Of a stretch of 64,000 nucleotides of DNA, positions 22,077 to 28,682 are shown in pieces. Within the stretch, counting starts at the first letter, position 1, and every line of letters starts with the position of its first letter. A program made the translations under genes and the position numbers. Below the pieces are notes generated by a model that saw only the letters and a list, made by a program, of their open reading frames with translations, was not told the DNA's origin and did no database searches. The DNA is from Nesterenkonia ebinurensis. Lineage in GTDB: Bacteria; Actinomycetota; Actinomycetes; Actinomycetales; Micrococcaceae. Location: the NCBI RefSeq assembly GCF_008711175.1, contig NZ_VWNF01000005.1:1-64000 (forward strand), read 5' to 3'.

Positions 22077-24761
22077 ATGCTGGTAGGCCGACAGGACGAT
22101 CTTGACGCTATCCGTAGCGCGATCGGGCACGCTGCATCCGGCTCCCCCCAGCTTGTCGTCATCGAAGGCGATCCGGGAATAGGCAAGCGTTCCCTGGCCC
22201 GAGCGGCTCTAGCTGGCGCCGGCGGCGCACAAATCGTCAGAGTCACCTGTGATCGTTCTGAAACCTCAGTCGCCTATGCGGCCCTCGACCAGCTATTGCG
22301 CGCCGCCGATCTCGACCCCGGACCTCCGGAGGCCCTCGGCTCGACTCTTCCAGCTGCCCGCCGCCTGTTGAACGCCCTGAACCAACTCGACGAGACCATC
22401 AGTCCGCTGTGCGTTCTCATCGAGGAAGCTCATCTGATGGACGAATCCTCCGCCGAGGTGCTGGCCATCGTCGCACGGCGCCTGTCTGCGGAGTGCCTCC
22501 TGGTGATCGCCACATGCGAACCAGCTTCGGGCGGGTTCGCAGACGCGGCCAAGGGCTTGTCCGGCGGACAGGTCCTGCGATTGGACGGCCTCAGCTTCGA
22601 TGACCTCGTCGTTCTGACCCGCCACCGGGGTCTGACCGTTCCAGAACGGCGGCTCCGACACTGGCTGGAGACCACCGGAGGCAATCCCGCCTACCTGACG
22701 GCGATCCTCGAGGGATACAGCGCTGCCCCAGCTGGTCAGGCCGAAAACGTCCCCCTGCCTGCCTCGCTCACCGAAGCTGCCTCGGCACGGATAGCGGTGG
22801 CTTCACCCCCCGCCCGCGCGCTGTTGGAGTTGCTCTCCGTCGCCGAGAATCCGATGACTGTGGCCCAGGTCTCCGCGGCAGCCGCCAGTGAAGGAATAGA
22901 GGTCAGTGTCCCCGAGGCTCAGGAGGTCGGATTGTTGGACACCGGGCAGGGCGGACAGCTACGCACCCTCCGCCCTGCTTCTAACATCTTGCGGCATACC
23001 GCACGTGTCCTCATGCCGCCTGCCAGGCGCCGCGATATGCACCGAGCCGTGGCCGGAGTAGTCAACGGCGAGACACGCCTGGTCCATCTCGCGGCCTCGG
23101 TGGAAGACACCGACCCTGAGGTAGCCCGGCTGCTGGTGCAGGGGGCGGAAGAAGCACTTGATGGTGGCCGGTACCGGCGTGCCTGCGAGCTGCTGCTCAG
23201 GGCCGCTGATGTCACCCCCGATGCCAGCATTTTCGAGAATCTCGTGCTGCGTGCCGGTCTCGTCATCGCCTACGCGGAGGATCCGGGCATGACAGCCGAG
23301 ATCAATCCGCTGGTGCGGCGCTGCCAACCTTCCCCGCTGCGCACGATGCTCCTGGGCATGGAGGCGTTCCTCGCCCAGGATTACGCCAACGCCGAGCATC
23401 AGGCGACAACCGCGCTTGAACAGGCCGTCCGAGCCGGCAAGGACCAGACCGCCATTGGCGCGGCGGTCCTGGCTGGCTCGCTGCGCGCCCACAGCACCGA
23501 ACCCGCCTCAGCCCTGGAGGCCTTCGATGCCGCCCGTCAGGCCACCGAGCGCCTTCCAGATGCCCCTATCACCCGGGCCTACCATGTCCAGCGAGCCTGG
23601 GCCGAGTGGATGAATGGGCGGTTCGAGGCCGCCCTGGAAGAGCTGGAATGGCTGGATAGAGACCCCCGCCCGCTGCCCGAGCGCACCGATACACACTTTG
23701 TCCGAGCCCGGATCCGGTTCTACCAGGGCAATTCCTCCGGTGCGGCCGAGGATGTGGCAGCTGGCCTTGCTGTCATGGACGACCTGTCCATCCCCACCGG
23801 TGTACTTCGCGGACTCGGTGAACTGGCCCTCCTGGACTGGCATGCAGGACGCTGGGAGACAGCCCAGGAGCGCGCCCGGCTCGTGTTGGACACCGGAAAG
23901 GACGTGCGCCGCAACTACGGGCTCGTCGCCTCACGGGCCACCCTGGCCAACATCGCCGCCGCCCAAGGCTCATGGTCTGAGGCTGAGCGGCACCTCGCAG
24001 CGGCAGCAAAGGTCCCAAGTGAGCTGGCTGCCATCCAAACTCGGGTTCATCTCGCTTCTGCTTCAGCGGGCCTTGAACGGGCCCGTCGTAACCCCGCTGC
24101 AATGCTCGCCGCCCTGGATCCCCTCAGGGAAGCACCCTTCGCCCTGGCGGCCGCCAGGATTAATAACGGCTGGTGGAGAGCCTTTGAGGTCGAAGCCCTC
24201 GTCGCTCTGGACAGGCTGACCGAGGCAGCTGATGCCCAGGAACGCTTCCGCGAGGAAAGCGGGCACCAGCCGACGCTTGCCCTGCACGGACACCCCGACT
24301 GGACCGGGGCGTTGCTGGCCCGCGCCCGCGGTGAGCATGACACGGCCCTAGAGATATCGGCACGATCAGTCGCCGCCACCGCACCGCCGCTGGTGCACGC
24401 CCTGCAGATGCGAGACCATGCGAGTCTTCTCAGCGGCTCTGGACGTCACCAGGAGGCTCGGCGGGCGCGTGAGCGGGCGGAGAGCCTCCTGCAACGCCTC
24501 GGTGCCACTGCCTACCTCGGTAGTGCCGCAGACGACCCAGACCAGCGCGCAGACGGACTACCGGCGCACCTCACCTCCCGAGAGCGAGAAGTGGCGCGCC
24601 TTGCCGCCGAAGGCTGGACGAATAAGGAGATCGCGGCCCGGCTCTTTGTCACTGCGAAGACGATCGAGTACCACCTGGGCAACGTCATGGCCAAACTCGG
24701 GCTCCGCAGCCGCCGCCAGCTCCGGCCCCTGCTTGCCAGGTCCGCGGCAGTGCAGCCTTAG
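22077..24761 (+). CDS. Large ATP-binding LuxR-family (LAL) transcriptional regulator
   Basis: 894 residues. It opens with MLVGRQDDLDAI, then a Walker A motif GDPGIGKRS (residues 31-39) and an ATPase of the AAA16/MalT type. A long helical TPR-like middle follows (about 330-810). The C-terminal LuxR helix-turn-helix reads LTSREREVARLAAEGWTNKE and continues to residue about 890. ATG 22077 is preferred over a GTG at 22047 because it begins the conserved fold. It is followed by the SipW/TasA-like locus in the same direction and is the obvious candidate activator of it. The ligand is unknown. Confidence 0.87.
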   Translation: MLVGRQDDLDAIRSAIGHAASGSPQLVVIEGDPGIGKRSLARAALAGAGGAQIVRVTCDRSETSVAYAALDQLLRAADLDPGPPEALGSTLPAARRLLNALNQLDETISPLCVLIEEAHLMDESSAEVLAIVARRLSAECLLVIATCEPASGGFADAAKGLSGGQVLRLDGLSFDDLVVLTRHRGLTVPERRLRHWLETTGGNPAYLTAILEGYSAAPAGQAENVPLPASLTEAASARIAVASPPARALLELLSVAENPMTVAQVSAAAASEGIEVSVPEAQEVGLLDTGQGGQLRTLRPASNILRHTARVLMPPARRRDMHRAVAGVVNGETRLVHLAASVEDTDPEVARLLVQGAEEALDGGRYRRACELLLRAADVTPDASIFENLVLRAGLVIAYAEDPGMTAEINPLVRRCQPSPLRTMLLGMEAFLAQDYANAEHQATTALEQAVRAGKDQTAIGAAVLAGSLRAHSTEPASALEAFDAARQATERLPDAPITRAYHVQRAWAEWMNGRFEAALEELEWLDRDPRPLPERTDTHFVRARIRFYQGNSSGAAEDVAAGLAVMDDLSIPTGVLRGLGELALLDWHAGRWETAQERARLVLDTGKDVRRNYGLVASRATLANIAAAQGSWSEAERHLAAAAKVPSELAAIQTRVHLASASAGLERARRNPAAMLAALDPLREAPFALAAARINNGWWRAFEVEALVALDRLTEAADAQERFREESGHQPTLALHGHPDWTGALLARARGEHDTALEISARSVAATAPPLVHALQMRDHASLLSGSGRHQEARRARERAESLLQRLGATAYLGSAADDPDQRADGLPAHLTSREREVARLAAEGWTNKEIAARLFVTAKTIEYHLGNVMAKLGLRSRRQLRPLLARSAAVQP

Positions 24762-24799
24762 CCGCACCCTGTGGCTCCTGTCCGAATTCGAACCCAGAA

Positions 24800-24816
24800 C
24801 TAGGGAAAATCCCTAG
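24800..24816. promoter_or_regulatory. Perfect palindrome upstream of the surface-protein operon
   Basis: CTAGGGA-AAA-TCCCTAG has 7-bp perfect arms, 75 bp upstream of the 24891 start and 39 bp after the LAL regulator stop. LuxR-type regulators bind palindromes of this kind, so it is a candidate site for one of the two flanking LuxR proteins. This assignment is inference. Confidence 0.5.
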
Positions 24817-24890
24817 GGACTTCGCCTGTACCGCCCTCTAGCGTGGTTTCTTGCGGCTGATCGACCGCGCCCCGAACGCGAAGAGGTGTT

Positions 24891-25550
24891 ATGTCCACGG
24901 CGGAAATCTGTGTCCTGGAAGTAGCCAGCACTCCCGGCGACGGCGCCGGCAGTGCCCTACCGGACACCGGCACCGACCTCACCGTGTTGCTCGTCCTGGC
25001 CGGCGTGCTGGTGATCCTCGGCCTCATCGTGGTCCGCCGGATCCCGGGCACGCGCAGCCCAGAGGGCTCGGGCCGAGGTGGCGGCGCGGCCGTCCTGGCC
25101 GTGGCTGTCCTTAGCCTGGGTCTTTTTGCCCCGTCCACGCCGGCCGCCGCGAGCGAGGGCTCCCCGTCGGATGAGGACTGCCGCCTGATCGAGATCGAGG
25201 GGATCACCATCGACCTCGAGGCCGGAGACGATCTCATTCCTGGCGATTCCCGTTCGGCGCTGTCCTTCACGGTCCACAACAGCGTGGACTTCCCCATCGA
25301 GTTGAGCATCGGCTCCGAGGTCGTCCAGGACGGCGACGGCCTCGCTCGCTGGATCCTCACCGATCTCACCGCCGGGGCGCGCAGTGTCCAGGAGAGCCTC
25401 GGCGCTGGCCCTGCGCTCGCCCCGCAGACGCTCGAACCGGGTGAGAGCGCCGTTGTCGACTACGTCCTCAAGCTCGACCCGACCGCCGGCAATGACACCC
25501 AGGGCGCCGAGCTGGCCTTCGTCTCAATCATCGACGTCCGCCAGAGCTAG
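24891..25550 (+). CDS. Two-segment membrane/surface protein with N-terminal LPXTG-like signal and TasA-like beta domain
   Basis: 219 residues. LPDTG (23-27) is followed at once by a hydrophobic stretch (30-48) and RR (49-50). This is the layout of a sortase signal, yet it is at the N terminus. A second hydrophobic segment (about 65-82, ending STPAAA) could be a signal anchor with a cleavage site. Residues 95-219 form a beta-rich, acidic extracellular domain resembling the camelysin/TasA class (ALSFTVHNSVDFPIELSI; LEPGESAVVDYVLKLD). AGAGGTG precedes the ATG. It is the first gene of the SipW cluster. No close function is recognised. Confidence 0.7.
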   Translation: MSTAEICVLEVASTPGDGAGSALPDTGTDLTVLLVLAGVLVILGLIVVRRIPGTRSPEGSGRGGGAAVLAVAVLSLGLFAPSTPAAASEGSPSDEDCRLIEIEGITIDLEAGDDLIPGDSRSALSFTVHNSVDFPIELSIGSEVVQDGDGLARWILTDLTAGARSVQESLGAGPALAPQTLEPGESAVVDYVLKLDPTAGNDTQGAELAFVSIIDVRQS

Positions 25551-25632
25551 ACCATCCCCTCTGTCCATCCGTCCCCGACCCCAACCCGCGCCTGTCCCGA
25601 TGGCAGGTAACCCACCAAGGAAGGAAACACCC

Positions 25633-26211
25633 ATGTCCGAGAACACCACCACCGCTCAGGCGACCACCCGTCGCCCCTGGCGCACTCGTGCCGCCATCGC
25701 CGGCGCCGGCGTCCTCGCTTTGACTGGTGGTCTGATGGCCACTAACGCCTATTTCACCGACCAGGAGACCATCGGCCCGCAGAACGTCGGCACCGCCACA
25801 CTCAGCATCGGCGAGACCAGCAGCCCCTTCGCCGTCGAGGATCTCCTGCCCGGTGTTTCCCAGAGCGAGACGCTGTCCTTCGAGAACGACGGCAGCGTGC
25901 CCTTCGCCTACTCCATCGAGCTGGACGGGATCGACCCGGTCTTCGACCCTGATGACCCAGACGCCGACGTCGAGGATCTGCTCGGCTGGGTGACCATCTC
26001 GGTCGAGGTCGGCAGCGAGGTTGAGACCGGTACGTTGCTGAACCCGCCCGACGCCGTGACCGGCACCGTTGATGAAGGCGAGGATCTGGACATCGACGTG
26101 GCGGTCGGCCTGGTCTCGGACGCCACCAACGCCGCCCAGGACGAAGAACTCCAGTTCGACGTCGTCATCGACGCCACTCAGGTGCCTCAGTCTCCTCCCA
26201 CCGGTTCCTGA
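25633..26211 (+). CDS. TasA/camelysin-like secreted protein with SipW-type signal peptide
   Basis: 192 residues. A twin-Arg-containing N region (TTRRPWRTRAA), a hydrophobic core (IAGAGVLALTGGLMA) and then TNAYFTDQE form the A-x-FTD junction typical of SipW-processed proteins (TasA, camelysin). The mature part is a very acidic beta-sandwich (NVGTATLSIG; LPGVSQSETLSFENDGSVPF; repeated DPDDPDADVEDL). Such proteins polymerise into fibres or act at the cell surface. AAGGAAGG lies upstream of the ATG. A strong hairpin follows the stop. Confidence 0.8.
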   Translation: MSENTTTAQATTRRPWRTRAAIAGAGVLALTGGLMATNAYFTDQETIGPQNVGTATLSIGETSSPFAVEDLLPGVSQSETLSFENDGSVPFAYSIELDGIDPVFDPDDPDADVEDLLGWVTISVEVGSEVETGTLLNPPDAVTGTVDEGEDLDIDVAVGLVSDATNAAQDEELQFDVVIDATQVPQSPPTGS

Positions 26212-26222
26212 CCGTAAGAACT

Positions 26223-26280
26223 GATGACCGGGTCCTTCCCCTCAAAGTCCCCCGCCCCTAAGCGGGAGGATCCGGTCATC
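26223..26280 (+). promoter_or_regulatory. Strong intercistronic stem-loop between the TasA-like and RCC1 genes
   Basis: GATGACCGG (26223-26231) pairs perfectly with CCGGTCATC (26272-26280). A second stem, CCCGC (26251-26255) with GCGGG (26262-26266), sits inside. There is no T-run, so it is more likely an mRNA-stabilising or attenuating element than a simple terminator. It could raise TasA-like protein output relative to the distal genes. Confidence 0.6.
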
Positions 26281-26340
26281 GATCACTGAGATCGCCTGAC
26301 GGCCGTCGAGCGAGAACCGACTTACGAGGAGCCCCTTCAT

Positions 26341-27795
26341 ATGCGTGCACGGACGAGACTGTCCCTGCTGGCCGCCACAGCCCTGGCACTGCTGCCCGGC
26401 CTGGCGGTGACCTCGGCCTCCTTCACCGACCAGGCCGTCATCGACGGCAACCAGGCCAGCACCGCGACTCTGACCCAGGAGCGCCCCATCGCAGAAGAGG
26501 TCACCGCGACCTCGATCGAGCTGTCCTGGAGCGCCGACCCCGCAGGCGGCCTGACCCCGGGGTACGTCGTCCAACGCTCCCTGACCACGGGCTTCGAGGA
26601 TCCCGCCACCGTGTATGAGGGCGATGCCACGAGCGTCCTTGATGACGAGATCCCGCCGGTGCCGCCGGAGCTTGAGGTGACGGCGGTCGCGGCCGGGTCG
26701 TTCCACTCGTGTGCGGTGGCCGACAGTGAGGTGTACTGCTGGGGCCAGAATAGTAATGGCGAGGCGCCGGGCGGTGGCATGGATCCGGTGCCGATCGGCG
26801 ACGGCACAGCAGAGGCCACAGCGGTCGCCACCGGGCTGAGCCACTCGTGTGCGGTAGCCGACAGTCAGGTGTACTGCTGGGGCTCGAACAGTGGGGGTCG
26901 GGCACCGGGCGGCGGCGTGGATCCGGTGCCGATCGGCGACGGCACAGCAGAGGCCACAGCGGTCGCCGCAGGACTGAGCCACTCGTGTGCCGTGGCCGAC
27001 AGTGAGGTGTACTGCTGGGGCCGGAACAACTACGGCCAAGCGCCGGGCGGCGGCGTAGATCCGGTACCAATCGGCGACGGCACAGCAGAGGCCACAGCGG
27101 TCGCCGCAGGACAGCTCCACTCGTGTGCCGTGGCCGACGGTGAGGTGTACTGCTGGGGCCTGACCATCAATGGCCAGGCGCCGGGCGGCGGCGTGGATCC
27201 GGTACCAATCGGCGACGGCACAGCCCCGGTGACGGCCACAGCGGTCGCCACCGGAGACAACCACTCGTGTGCGGTCGCCGATGGTGAGGTGTACTGCTGG
27301 GGCCTGAACAATGGGGGTCAGGCGCCGGGCGGCGGCGTGGAACCGGTACCGATCGGCGACGGCACAGCCCCGGTGACGGCGATCACCGGCGGGCAGTGGC
27401 ACTCATGTGCGGTGGCTGGGGGCCAGGCCTACTGCTGGGGTTTTTACACCGAGGACGAGCCGGCCGGAGATGGTACGGATCCAGTGCCGATCGGCGACGG
27501 CACAGCCCCGGTGACGGCCACGGCGGTCGCCGCCGGAGAGAGCCACTCGTGTGCGGTCGCCACAGGCCAAATGTACTGCTGGGGCCTGGACAACCACGGT
27601 CAGGCACCGGGCGGTGGTGCGGTGCCGGTGAGCATCGGCCCGTGGTGCCCGCCTGATATGGTGCTCGCCTCTGACGAGAGTGCCTGCACGCTGATCCCCG
27701 GCACCGACTACCACTACCGCGTCAGCCACGGGATCGGGAGCTGGACCTCCCCCTGGTCCGAGGCGCTGACCGTGACCACGGAGCCGGCGCCGTGA
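26341..27795 (+). CDS. SipW-type secreted RCC1-repeat protein with split fibronectin-III domain
   Basis: 484 residues. The signal region (LLAATALALLPGLAVTSA) ends in SASFTDQAV, like the TasA-like neighbour. Residues about 53-105 look like the first strands of a fibronectin-III domain (TSIELSWSADPAGG; GYVVQRS). Residues 115-430 are seven RCC1 repeats, each containing HSCAVA...YCWG and most containing DPVPIGDGT. The last 40 residues resume Fn3 (LIPGTDYHYRVSHG; WTSPWSEALTVTT). Each repeat has two Cys that could form a disulfide. Its stop overlaps the SipW start (GTGA). It is probably a surface adhesin or matrix protein. Confidence 0.82.
   Translation: MRARTRLSLLAATALALLPGLAVTSASFTDQAVIDGNQASTATLTQERPIAEEVTATSIELSWSADPAGGLTPGYVVQRSLTTGFEDPATVYEGDATSVLDDEIPPVPPELEVTAVAAGSFHSCAVADSEVYCWGQNSNGEAPGGGMDPVPIGDGTAEATAVATGLSHSCAVADSQVYCWGSNSGGRAPGGGVDPVPIGDGTAEATAVAAGLSHSCAVADSEVYCWGRNNYGQAPGGGVDPVPIGDGTAEATAVAAGQLHSCAVADGEVYCWGLTINGQAPGGGVDPVPIGDGTAPVTATAVATGDNHSCAVADGEVYCWGLNNGGQAPGGGVEPVPIGDGTAPVTAITGGQWHSCAVAGGQAYCWGFYTEDEPAGDGTDPVPIGDGTAPVTATAVAAGESHSCAVATGQMYCWGLDNHGQAPGGGAVPVSIGPWCPPDMVLASDESACTLIPGTDYHYRVSHGIGSWTSPWSEALTVTTEPAP
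26683..27637 (+). repeat. Seven tandem RCC1 units (about 138-144 bp each)
   Basis: The DNA repeats closely, for example GTGTACTGCTGGGGCC and CCGATCGGCGACGGCACAGC recur in most units. Units 1-5 are nearly uniform; units 6 and 7 have diverged. A seven-unit count is what is needed to close a seven-bladed RCC1 propeller. Confidence 0.85.
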
Positions 27796-28292
27796 GCGTG
27801 CACAGCGGTCTGCGACTGCTGCGCACGCTCGCGGTGGCGCTCCTCGGCGCCCTGCTTCTTCTCCCGCTCGCGATCGTGCCGCTGGACCACCGGCTCGTGG
27901 TCGTCGACGGCGCCTCCATGGCTCCCACCTACCAGGTCGGCGACGTCATCCTTGTCGGCCCGGCGGATCAGGACTTCGAGGTCGGTGCGGTGGTGACCGC
28001 TCGCGGAGTAGGCGGGCTGTACACCCATCGGATCGTGGACGTCACGGAGGAAGACGGCCAGCCGGTGGCCACCACCCGGGGCGATGCCAATGCCTACGAC
28101 GATGCCGCCCCGCTGCACCCTGAGAACGTCGAGGGCACTGTCCGCTTCCACACCAGCCAGCCCTGGGCCGGGCTCATCGGGATCACCCAGAGCATGCCCG
28201 GGCGCATCACCCTCGCCGCGCTGATCGCCATCGTCCTGCTGCTGCCGATCCGCGATAGAGAAGCCACCACGGCGACCCTGAGGAACCGTTGA
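27792..28292 (+). CDS. sipW: SipW-type (ER-type) signal peptidase I
   Basis: 166 residues. N-terminal helix (about 10-30), then the nucleophile Ser42 in VDGASMAPTYQVGDVI, His79 in LYTHRIVDV in place of the general-base Lys of ordinary bacterial enzymes, and Asp98 in TTRGDANAYDD. A second helix lies near residues 140-157 (ITLAALIAIVLLLP). The Ser-His-Asp arrangement and two helices define the SipW/ER-type signal peptidase. It should cleave the FTD-type signal peptides of the two upstream genes. Start GTG overlaps the RCC1 gene stop. Confidence 0.9.
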   Translation: MSVHSGLRLLRTLAVALLGALLLLPLAIVPLDHRLVVVDGASMAPTYQVGDVILVGPADQDFEVGAVVTARGVGGLYTHRIVDVTEEDGQPVATTRGDANAYDDAAPLHPENVEGTVRFHTSQPWAGLIGITQSMPGRITLAALIAIVLLLPIRDREATTATLRNR

Positions 28293-28385
28293 ACAGAGTT
28301 TAAGAACATCGTCGTCTTCATGCAGGACAGTAAAACACTCAATCCATCAAGAGACCGGGGCCGGCCTATCCCGGAAAGGAAGCAC

Positions 28386-28682
28386 ATGATTCGATCCCAG
28401 AAGAACACCCCGACGGTGGCAGATATGGTCCGCCACCAGCCCCAGGGAGTCACTGCACCAGCAGAGGATCCCGAACTCCGGGACAAGCTCTCAAAGCTCA
28501 CAGGACGTGAAAGAGAGATCTCTCTGCATATCGCGGAAGGTAAGACCAACTCCGAAATTGCGGAGGACCTCTGCATCTCCATCCGAACAGTCGAACGACA
28601 CGTCGCCAACATCTTCAATAAGCTCGACGTCTCATCTCGAGTCAAAGTCCGACAACTCCTGCGCTCCAGAACCTCCCTATGA
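28386..28682 (+). CDS. Small LuxR-type DNA-binding protein
   Basis: 98 residues, no receiver or sensor domain. The LuxR/GerE helix-turn-helix spans about residues 36-95 (LTGREREISLHIAEGKTNSE; RTVERHVANIFNKLDVSSR). ATG 28386 is chosen because GGAAAGGAAG lies just upstream; an in-frame ATG at 28320 has none. It sits 93 bp after sipW in the same direction and may be a second regulator of the surface-protein locus, comparable to GerE-like small regulators. Confidence 0.8.
   Translation: MIRSQKNTPTVADMVRHQPQGVTAPAEDPELRDKLSKLTGREREISLHIAEGKTNSEIAEDLCISIRTVERHVANIFNKLDVSSRVKVRQLLRSRTSL

Follow-up and report, generated by a model that had tools for sequence, protein, structure and literature searches.

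Does a SipW-type signal peptidase in an actinobacterium serve an RCC1 propeller protein as its second substrate, where Bacillus uses TapA? The question is raised by a six-gene locus at positions 22077-28682 of a 64,000-nucleotide stretch of the Nesterenkonia ebinurensis genome (assembly GCF_008711175.1, contig NZ_VWNF01000005.1, positions 1 to 64,000; hereafter the window). All six genes lie on the + strand, encoding in this order a LAL-type regulator, an acidic protein that we call P2, a TasA-like protein, an RCC1 protein, SipW and a 98-residue LuxR-type protein. An initial annotation, whose placement of the six genes we confirm, had read the locus as a SipW/TasA-type export module with the RCC1 propeller as second SipW-type substrate and a linked LAL gene, and the sequence comparisons described here support that reading. 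We conclude that the RCC1-sipW partnership is a genuine recurrent variant of SipW/TasA systems with the propeller as second substrate, while the fibre-and-tip mechanism that we propose for it, though our preferred reading, is unproven.

The peptidase gene (27792..28292, 166 residues) scores 70.3 bits against TIGR02228 (cut-off 51.85). Replacement of the Ser/Lys pair by Ser/His/Asp is the mark of SipW-type (endoplasmic reticulum/archaeal) signal peptidases, and Ser42, His79 and Asp98, the residues named by the initial annotation, are invariant in an alignment of the window protein with three relatives. Against the Bacillus SipW equivalog NF046067, the same protein reaches 47.4 bits, below the 190 needed. 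Of the two signal peptides that had been predicted to end in SipW-type junctions, that of the TasA-like protein (25633..26211), ending in TNAYFTD, scores 22.6 bits against the SipW-type signal model TIGR04088 (cut-off 19). That of the 484-residue RCC1 protein (26341..27795), ending in SASFTD, falls on either side of this cut-off, at 17.5 bits when searched as a protein and 20.7 bits in the genome search. The RCC1 protein matches PF25390 at 166.9 bits (cut-off 150), plus six RCC1_2 stretches, and its structure model forms a propeller over residues ~110-432 (26668-27636), with ten-residue blocks mostly at a predicted local distance difference test score (pLDDT) of 67-92, dips to 54-62 and flanks below 50. 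No TapA family was found among its Pfam or NCBIfam matches. Its stop codon overlaps the sipW start (GTGA, 27792-27795).

To follow this pairing outside the family, we used the RCC1_2 family for the order-wide search, as the RCC1 protein itself, used as query against 396 genomes, missed the Agromyces protein. RCC1_2 repeats occur in 93 of the 396 genomes, and sipW was searched in 80 of these, leaving out nine genomes of family f4 and four that were at most 77% complete. It was found in 57 of the 80, at 112 places. We read 94 of these; the 18 weaker ones left out had E-values of 3.5e-13 or weaker (one was above the cut-off, with its neighbours within the frame), and for 29 of the 94 the flanks read did not exceed 1.5 kb per side (L146, one of these, was afterwards extended to give L331). 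An RCC1 gene stands beside sipW at seven of the 94 loci, in five families and with the window included. If a 4-Mb genome is assumed to have ten RCC1 genes, and 3 kb are counted on each side, chance would give 1.4 such loci (P 5e-4 for 7/94; P 0.003 for the 6/93 that remain without the window); with two RCC1 genes assumed per genome, it would give 0.28. The recurrence of this gene partnership in distant relatives suggests that it is a real variant, hitherto undescribed, of a known type of surface-fibre system.

The six loci besides the window come from four other families: one in Agromyces sp. S2-1-8 (genome G555), two each in genomes G467 and G412, and one in G276. Gene order varies among them. 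Contig 1 of G467 and the G412 locus at 2.07 Mb both read TasA-P2-RCC1-SipW, the latter with a second RCC1 gene ~2 kb away. Contig 72 of G467 (L331) carries three exported proteins, then P2, RCC1, a further exported protein, SipW and LAL, and stands out for its expanded run of several exported TasA-type proteins. The Agromyces locus, cut by the contig start, reads P2-RCC1-SipW with a convergent LAL gene; the G412 locus at 2.49 Mb reads SipW-RCC1 with two LAL-size genes nearby; and that of G276 (L192) reads RCC1-TasA-SipW. A P2-like protein, RCC1 and SipW occur together at two loci in G467, one in G412 and one in Agromyces sp. S2-1-8, the first three with TasA-type genes as well. The TasA label in G412 (L172) is backed by PF12389 (29.2 bits against 22.5) and TIGR04088 (21.8 against 19), and that on G467 contig 1 in part, by TIGR04088 (19.3 against 19) and by no TasA family. 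For L331 and L192 the label rests on the junctions and our own reading of the proteins, which we accordingly call putatively TasA-like. RCC1 genes of family f15 in L324-L330 have no sipW within the stretches read; in that family, RCC1 was seen beside sipW in G276 only.

Two features of the exported proteins themselves were compared. A junction of the form [AGST]-x-[FW]-[TSAQN]-[DGS] behind a hydrophobic segment is present in six of the eight RCC1 proteins of the RCC1-sipW loci and in six of 72 unlinked RCC1 open reading frames (ORFs; those, out of 117 unlinked, that have an N-terminal hydrophobic segment), giving a Fisher P of 7e-5. The two misses are the distal RCC1 protein of L172, which lacks the motif, and that of L331, which bears Y for F/W; without them the linked proteins score 6/6 (Fisher P 4e-6). 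Beyond the junction, the predicted mature N-termini of the window's TasA-like and RCC1 proteins share FTDQ...TATL in register (TNAYFTDQETIGPQNVGTATL and TSASFTDQAVIDGNQASTATL). Across five loci, pairing each RCC1 protein with the TasA-like protein of its own locus gave a summed score that ranked first among the 120 possible pairings, whether the junction was counted or left out. This test took the best of three proteins in L331, omitted one exported protein without a clear junction, and was run without L119 and without L087, which has no TasA-like gene before the contig start; its sample is small and it was devised after the window had been seen. An earlier version, with four RCC1 loci and L059, gave ungapped ranks of 2 and 4 of 120. 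The resemblance would also fit gene conversion, or coevolution of both proteins with the SipW of their locus.

The picture differs within the window's own family. The window SipW has matches in 105 of 197 family genomes (best outside match, E 1.4e-13 at 36% identity), and SipW modules as such are common in the family. We read 41 loci besides the window, 40 in relatives and one in the window genome, and TasA-like proteins recur with SipW among them; a large modular surface protein accompanies SipW in several. None of the 41 held an RCC1 match (phmmer, four RCC1 queries), and none held a P2 match. Linkage in relatives had been set beforehand as a test of the proposal, and its outcome is divided, with RCC1 beside sipW at six loci in four other families and at 0/41 loci in the family itself. 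The suggestion that the combination was new is too strong in part: the RCC1 partner is what stands out, SipW is widespread in the family, and NCBIfam models for both peptidase and signal exist. Among SipW genes of unusual build, the ORF at L058:8001-9377 extends into a further domain that looks exported, with an internal ASANFTS junction. In the window genome itself, another SipW gene exceeds the cut-off and two weak matches fall short of it. At this second locus (L039, contig C49, 134000-150000), two large LuxR-type regulators diverge, at least three of the proteins are exported ones whose junctions are of the SipW type or similar, and SipW is fused to an exported domain with an LAVTG-membrane-RR tail at its end.

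We also asked how the RCC1-linked peptidases are related. A quick tree built from 139 SipW sequences requires five changes to account for the seven RCC1-linked ones, where shuffling gives a mean of 6.9 (0/500 shuffles as low), and at least three of the five are forced by well-supported branches; the partnership is therefore clustered, yet has been gained or lost several times. The G555 peptidase and both of G412 lie close together, and the window SipW sits on a long branch. Within the genus, the cassette is accessory: nadC and the nifS-like gene upstream of it are conserved across the genus, and its genes were matched downstream of the same nifS-like gene in 0/22 other genus loci read with a 1.5 kb flank (one of which ends just behind the nifS-like gene). 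RCC1 matches occur in two of 30 genomes of the genus, the second of which, G205, has RCC1 proteins of a different build. In one of them (L088:5346-6695), the N-terminus ahead of the propeller is that of a type IV prepilin (N_methyl, 26.2 bits against 21.2; TIGR02532, 29.2 against 16.3). As a propeller apparently carried by another kind of filament, it would count in favour of the fibre reading given below. Viral contigs yielded no relatives of the RCC1 query. The seven repeats of the window propeller measure 138 or 144 nucleotides, and the six compared with the reference copy show 67 to 87% identity to it; such likeness at the DNA level (26676-27639) suggests recent amplification. Insertion of the propeller into a split Fn3 domain was considered on the basis of sub-cut-off Pfam matches at 51-81 and 451-480; the model, with its low-scoring flanks, does not support it.

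The TasA-like protein is related to known TasA proteins at the profile level. From FTD onward its 152 residues include 34 Asp or Glu and no Lys or Arg. It scores 19.8 bits against PF12389 (TasA/camelysin), which does not reach the gathering score of 22.5, and 14.8 bits against the full-length TasA equivalog model, which needs 450; used as a query, it found no relatives in the genome contigs. A profile of six TasA-like proteins matches 5of1 (E 2.2e-4) and 8aur (E 2.3e-4) over ~50 positions, together with 9rhp and 9sj2, with E-values of 2e-4 to 0.02 overall. From their names, we take 5of1 and 8aur to be TasA.

In P2 (24891..25550, 219 residues), an N-terminal LPDTG, a membrane segment and RR are followed by another signal-like segment (..APSTPAAASEG) and by an acidic domain of TasA-fold type. 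The initial annotation had seen a TasA-like acidic beta domain here, and the acidity (isoelectric point 4.05) and the kinship (profile comparison with TasA-like proteins, probability 93, E 3.4e-7) both stand. The sortase-type signal (LPDTG...VVRR, residues ~23-50, 24957..25040) scores 19.2 bits against TIGR01167 (cut-off 15.9), its features also being visible in hydropathy and charges. It is N-terminal in the window and not at the C-terminus expected of LPXTG sortase substrates. In all four P2-like relatives a sortase-type motif (LAITG, LLATTG, LETTG or LAATG), a membrane segment and a basic tail form the C-terminus; in the G412 protein, read from the start listed for it, a clear signal peptide is missing. 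The stretch STAEICVLEVAS before LPDTG looks by eye like the last strand of P2's own domain, and a tandem copy with its front lost may account for the N-terminal layout. One sortase was matched in the window genome (PF04203, 87.8 bits, contig C50), unlinked to the locus. Searching the 396 genomes with P2 gave one accepted relative, on the Agromyces contig; two other matches were discarded as unrelated on reading, with an internal stop.

Which regulators, then, go with the module? The LAL-type gene (22077..24761) encodes 894 residues from the ATG at 22077, the longest ORF starting at GTG 22047, and combines an N-terminal ATPase (AAA_16, 58.8 bits, cut-off 32.6) and TPR with a C-terminal LuxR-type helix-turn-helix (GerE, 65 bits, cut-off 23.5). 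The downstream protein (28386..28682, ATG 28386), 98 residues long, is hardly more than a LuxR-type helix-turn-helix. Both are present as annotated. The description of the module as framed by two regulators holds for the large one, whose linkage recurs near sipW: of the five LuxR-type ORFs of at least 700 residues in the window genome, three are found no more than 6 kb from the two sipW genes that exceed the cut-off (naive P 3e-6), and LuxR-type ORFs of at least 600 residues occur at six other family sipW loci (L045, L046, L065, L070, L072 and L074) as well as close to four of the seven loci with RCC1 and sipW (the window, L087, L119 and L331). The small gene was seen at the window only among these seven. 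At another sipW locus, L072, a 105-residue LuxR-only gene stands beside a LAL gene, 7 kb from sipW. Two large LuxR-type regulators also stand in tandem at L333:7643-13026, where the 20 kb that were read contain no sipW.

Between the LAL and P2 genes lies an inverted repeat with perfect 7-nucleotide arms (CTAGGGA-AAA-TCCCTAG, 24800..24816), a candidate operator of the LAL or the LuxR protein. Its core pattern TAGGGNNNNTCCCTA occurs elsewhere in the genome only at C49:165297, and the backward control pattern has one match. A strong stem-loop without a T run (26223..26280, + strand; -36.8 kcal/mol, z -3.73, 0/200 shuffles as low) separates the TasA-like and RCC1 genes and could possibly set the ratio of the two products at the mRNA level.

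Taken together, we propose that the window holds an accessory SipW-dependent surface-assembly operon in which a propeller is joined to a TasA-type fibre, with P2 as anchor and LAL as control, an account whose chances we put at about even. The LAL protein, and perhaps also the 98-residue LuxR protein, would control the operon, plausibly through the inverted repeat at 24800-24816. The TasA-like and RCC1 proteins would be exported by Sec, and SipW would cut both at A-x-F-T-D, leaving the two with free N-terminal strands that match. Of these, the TasA-like protein would serve as fibre or coat subunit. Through the same kind of N-terminal strand, the RCC1 propeller would join this subunit as initiator or tip, a position occupied by TapA in Bacillus subtilis, and would act as a binding head, with P2 as a TasA-fold anchor in wall or membrane. 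The sequences themselves establish the gene content and order, the protein families, the junction motifs, the linkage in other families and the likeness of the N-termini; cleavage by SipW, the joining of propeller and fibre, anchoring, regulation and the role as binding head are inferred. For biofilm-fibre formation and the replacement of TapA by the propeller, as the initial annotation had it, the hints are the stop/start overlap with sipW and the N-terminal stretch common to the RCC1 and TasA-like proteins. A bolder generalisation, which we hold tentatively and think rather unlikely, is that of propeller-headed TasA fibres at large: on subunit and RCC1 protein SipW would free a common kind of donor strand, tuned per locus, by which the propeller would cap or start the fibre instead of TapA; heads would have been gained or lost repeatedly, and in the window P2 would be permuted, which would put its sortase signal at the N-terminus.

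Several results weigh against our proposal. TIGR04088 matched none of the five RCC1 relatives scanned (the L192 protein lay outside the scan), and cleavage after T-S-A or T-N-A would also be within reach of an ordinary type I peptidase. Two L331 proteins and the L192 protein called TasA-like match neither TIGR04088 nor a TasA family in NCBIfam, and the two from L331 match no TasA family in Pfam either. Adding L059, a same-genus module with Ig repeats whose pair is not the best match, moves the N-terminal pairing to ranks 2 and 9 of 720, and the gapped version, for which L059 was combined with four RCC1 loci, did not reach significance (18 of 120). The RCC1-linked peptidases are not united in the SipW tree. 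In a broad scan of named genomes, sipW was found at one of 79 RCC1 loci (Agromyces), the loci coming mostly from other phyla or Bifidobacterium. Structure prediction, which had been suggested for the exported proteins, succeeded for the RCC1 propeller and gave a poor model of P2 (pLDDT 48), with no useful match in the fold search; P2 is related to the TasA-like proteins by profile comparison, and the TasA-like fold of the earlier claim is putative.

These observations leave room for other explanations. The RCC1 protein might be secreted as a soluble BLIP-II-like binder or inhibitor, one that shares the export route and is not joined to the TasA-like protein, a possibility we judge somewhat improbable. 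Chains of BLIP-II, itself a secreted binder according to an excerpt of PMC9218822, are the nearest solved sequences (E 4e-22 to 2e-21), and the propeller model fits BLIP-II with a TMt of 0.77-0.80. However, UVR8, RPGR and RCC1, the other fold relatives of the model, fit it about equally, so that the fold alone says little on a BLIP-II-type function, and the linkage to sipW in five families, the SipW-type junction and the within-locus N-terminal resemblance would be unexpected for a binder of this kind. A different account has an ordinary signal peptidase process the products while SipW serves another substrate, the linkage reflecting a shared regulon or the shuffling of accessory surface genes. 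Small residues at -1 and -3 of the junctions, judged by eye, are compatible with this, as are the further SipW gene and the two weaker matches in the genome and the several RCC1 gains or losses that the SipW tree demands; the overlap of the RCC1 stop with the sipW start and the repetition of the pairing in other families make it, in our view, distinctly unlikely.

Lastly, the cassette may be freshly shuffled and partly decayed, P2 being the remnant of a tandem pair whose first copy was reduced to its last strand and sorting signal; if so, the system may be partly broken. Such decay would fit the sorting signal, C-terminal in the four P2-like relatives and preceding the domain in the window, after STAEICVLEVAS, as well as the lack of cassette genes near the nifS-like gene in the 22 other genus loci. 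The P2 frame is nevertheless open, with a ribosome-binding site that looks good by eye and residues in common with the Agromyces protein, and the other five genes are intact frames; we consider decay very unlikely. Should the fibre proposal hold, with a propeller in the seat of TapA in actinobacteria, the starter or tip of the fibre would be an exchangeable slot, and a group of secreted RCC1 proteins would gain a function.

TasA fibres have been worked out in Bacillus, with TapA as the proposed starter. Our literature search found no paper with both RCC1 and SipW, which is weak evidence of absence as subscription journals lie mostly outside it. A passage on SipW, TasA and Actinobacteria concerns Bacillus, as do the papers listed under names of the NCBIfam SipW classes, and nothing relevant on LAL or LuxR with TasA was among the matches listed. 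The window peptidase passes TIGR02228 and the TasA-like signal TIGR04088; the descriptions shown for the NCBIfam SipW classes (TIGR02228, TIGR04088, TIGR04089 and TIGR04090) name no RCC1 substrate. The TasA-like profile matches structures of TasA fibres and of archaeal bundling pilins (5of1, 8aur, 9rhp, 9sj2); the window protein stays below the cut-off of the full-length TasA equivalog. BLIP-II, which comes from Streptomyces, and other RCC1-type propellers have the propeller and secretion in common with the window RCC1 protein, which differs from BLIP-II in its SipW-type junction, fibre-gene neighbourhood and flanking segments.

The closest comparisons are with Bacillus. In Bacillus cereus, whose sipW-tasA/calY/capP region lacks tapA, several fibre proteins are substrates of SipW and assembly is guided by CapP (excerpt of PMC13082335); this system resembles the window in having a non-TapA partner, although CapP is not a propeller and the regulators differ. 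According to excerpts of PMC10151520, TapA is not conserved even within the genus Bacillus, and TapA and TasA have N-terminal residues in common through which TapA is proposed to start the fibre. Like the window, the tapA-sipW-tasA operon of B. subtilis pairs a dedicated SipW with a TasA-family subunit, and the stop of its second substrate gene, tapA, overlaps the sipW start (same source). The window differs from it in having an RCC1 propeller for TapA, an extra LPXTG-bearing protein of TasA-fold type, and a LAL regulator where B. subtilis has SinR/SlrR (excerpt of PMC13082335).

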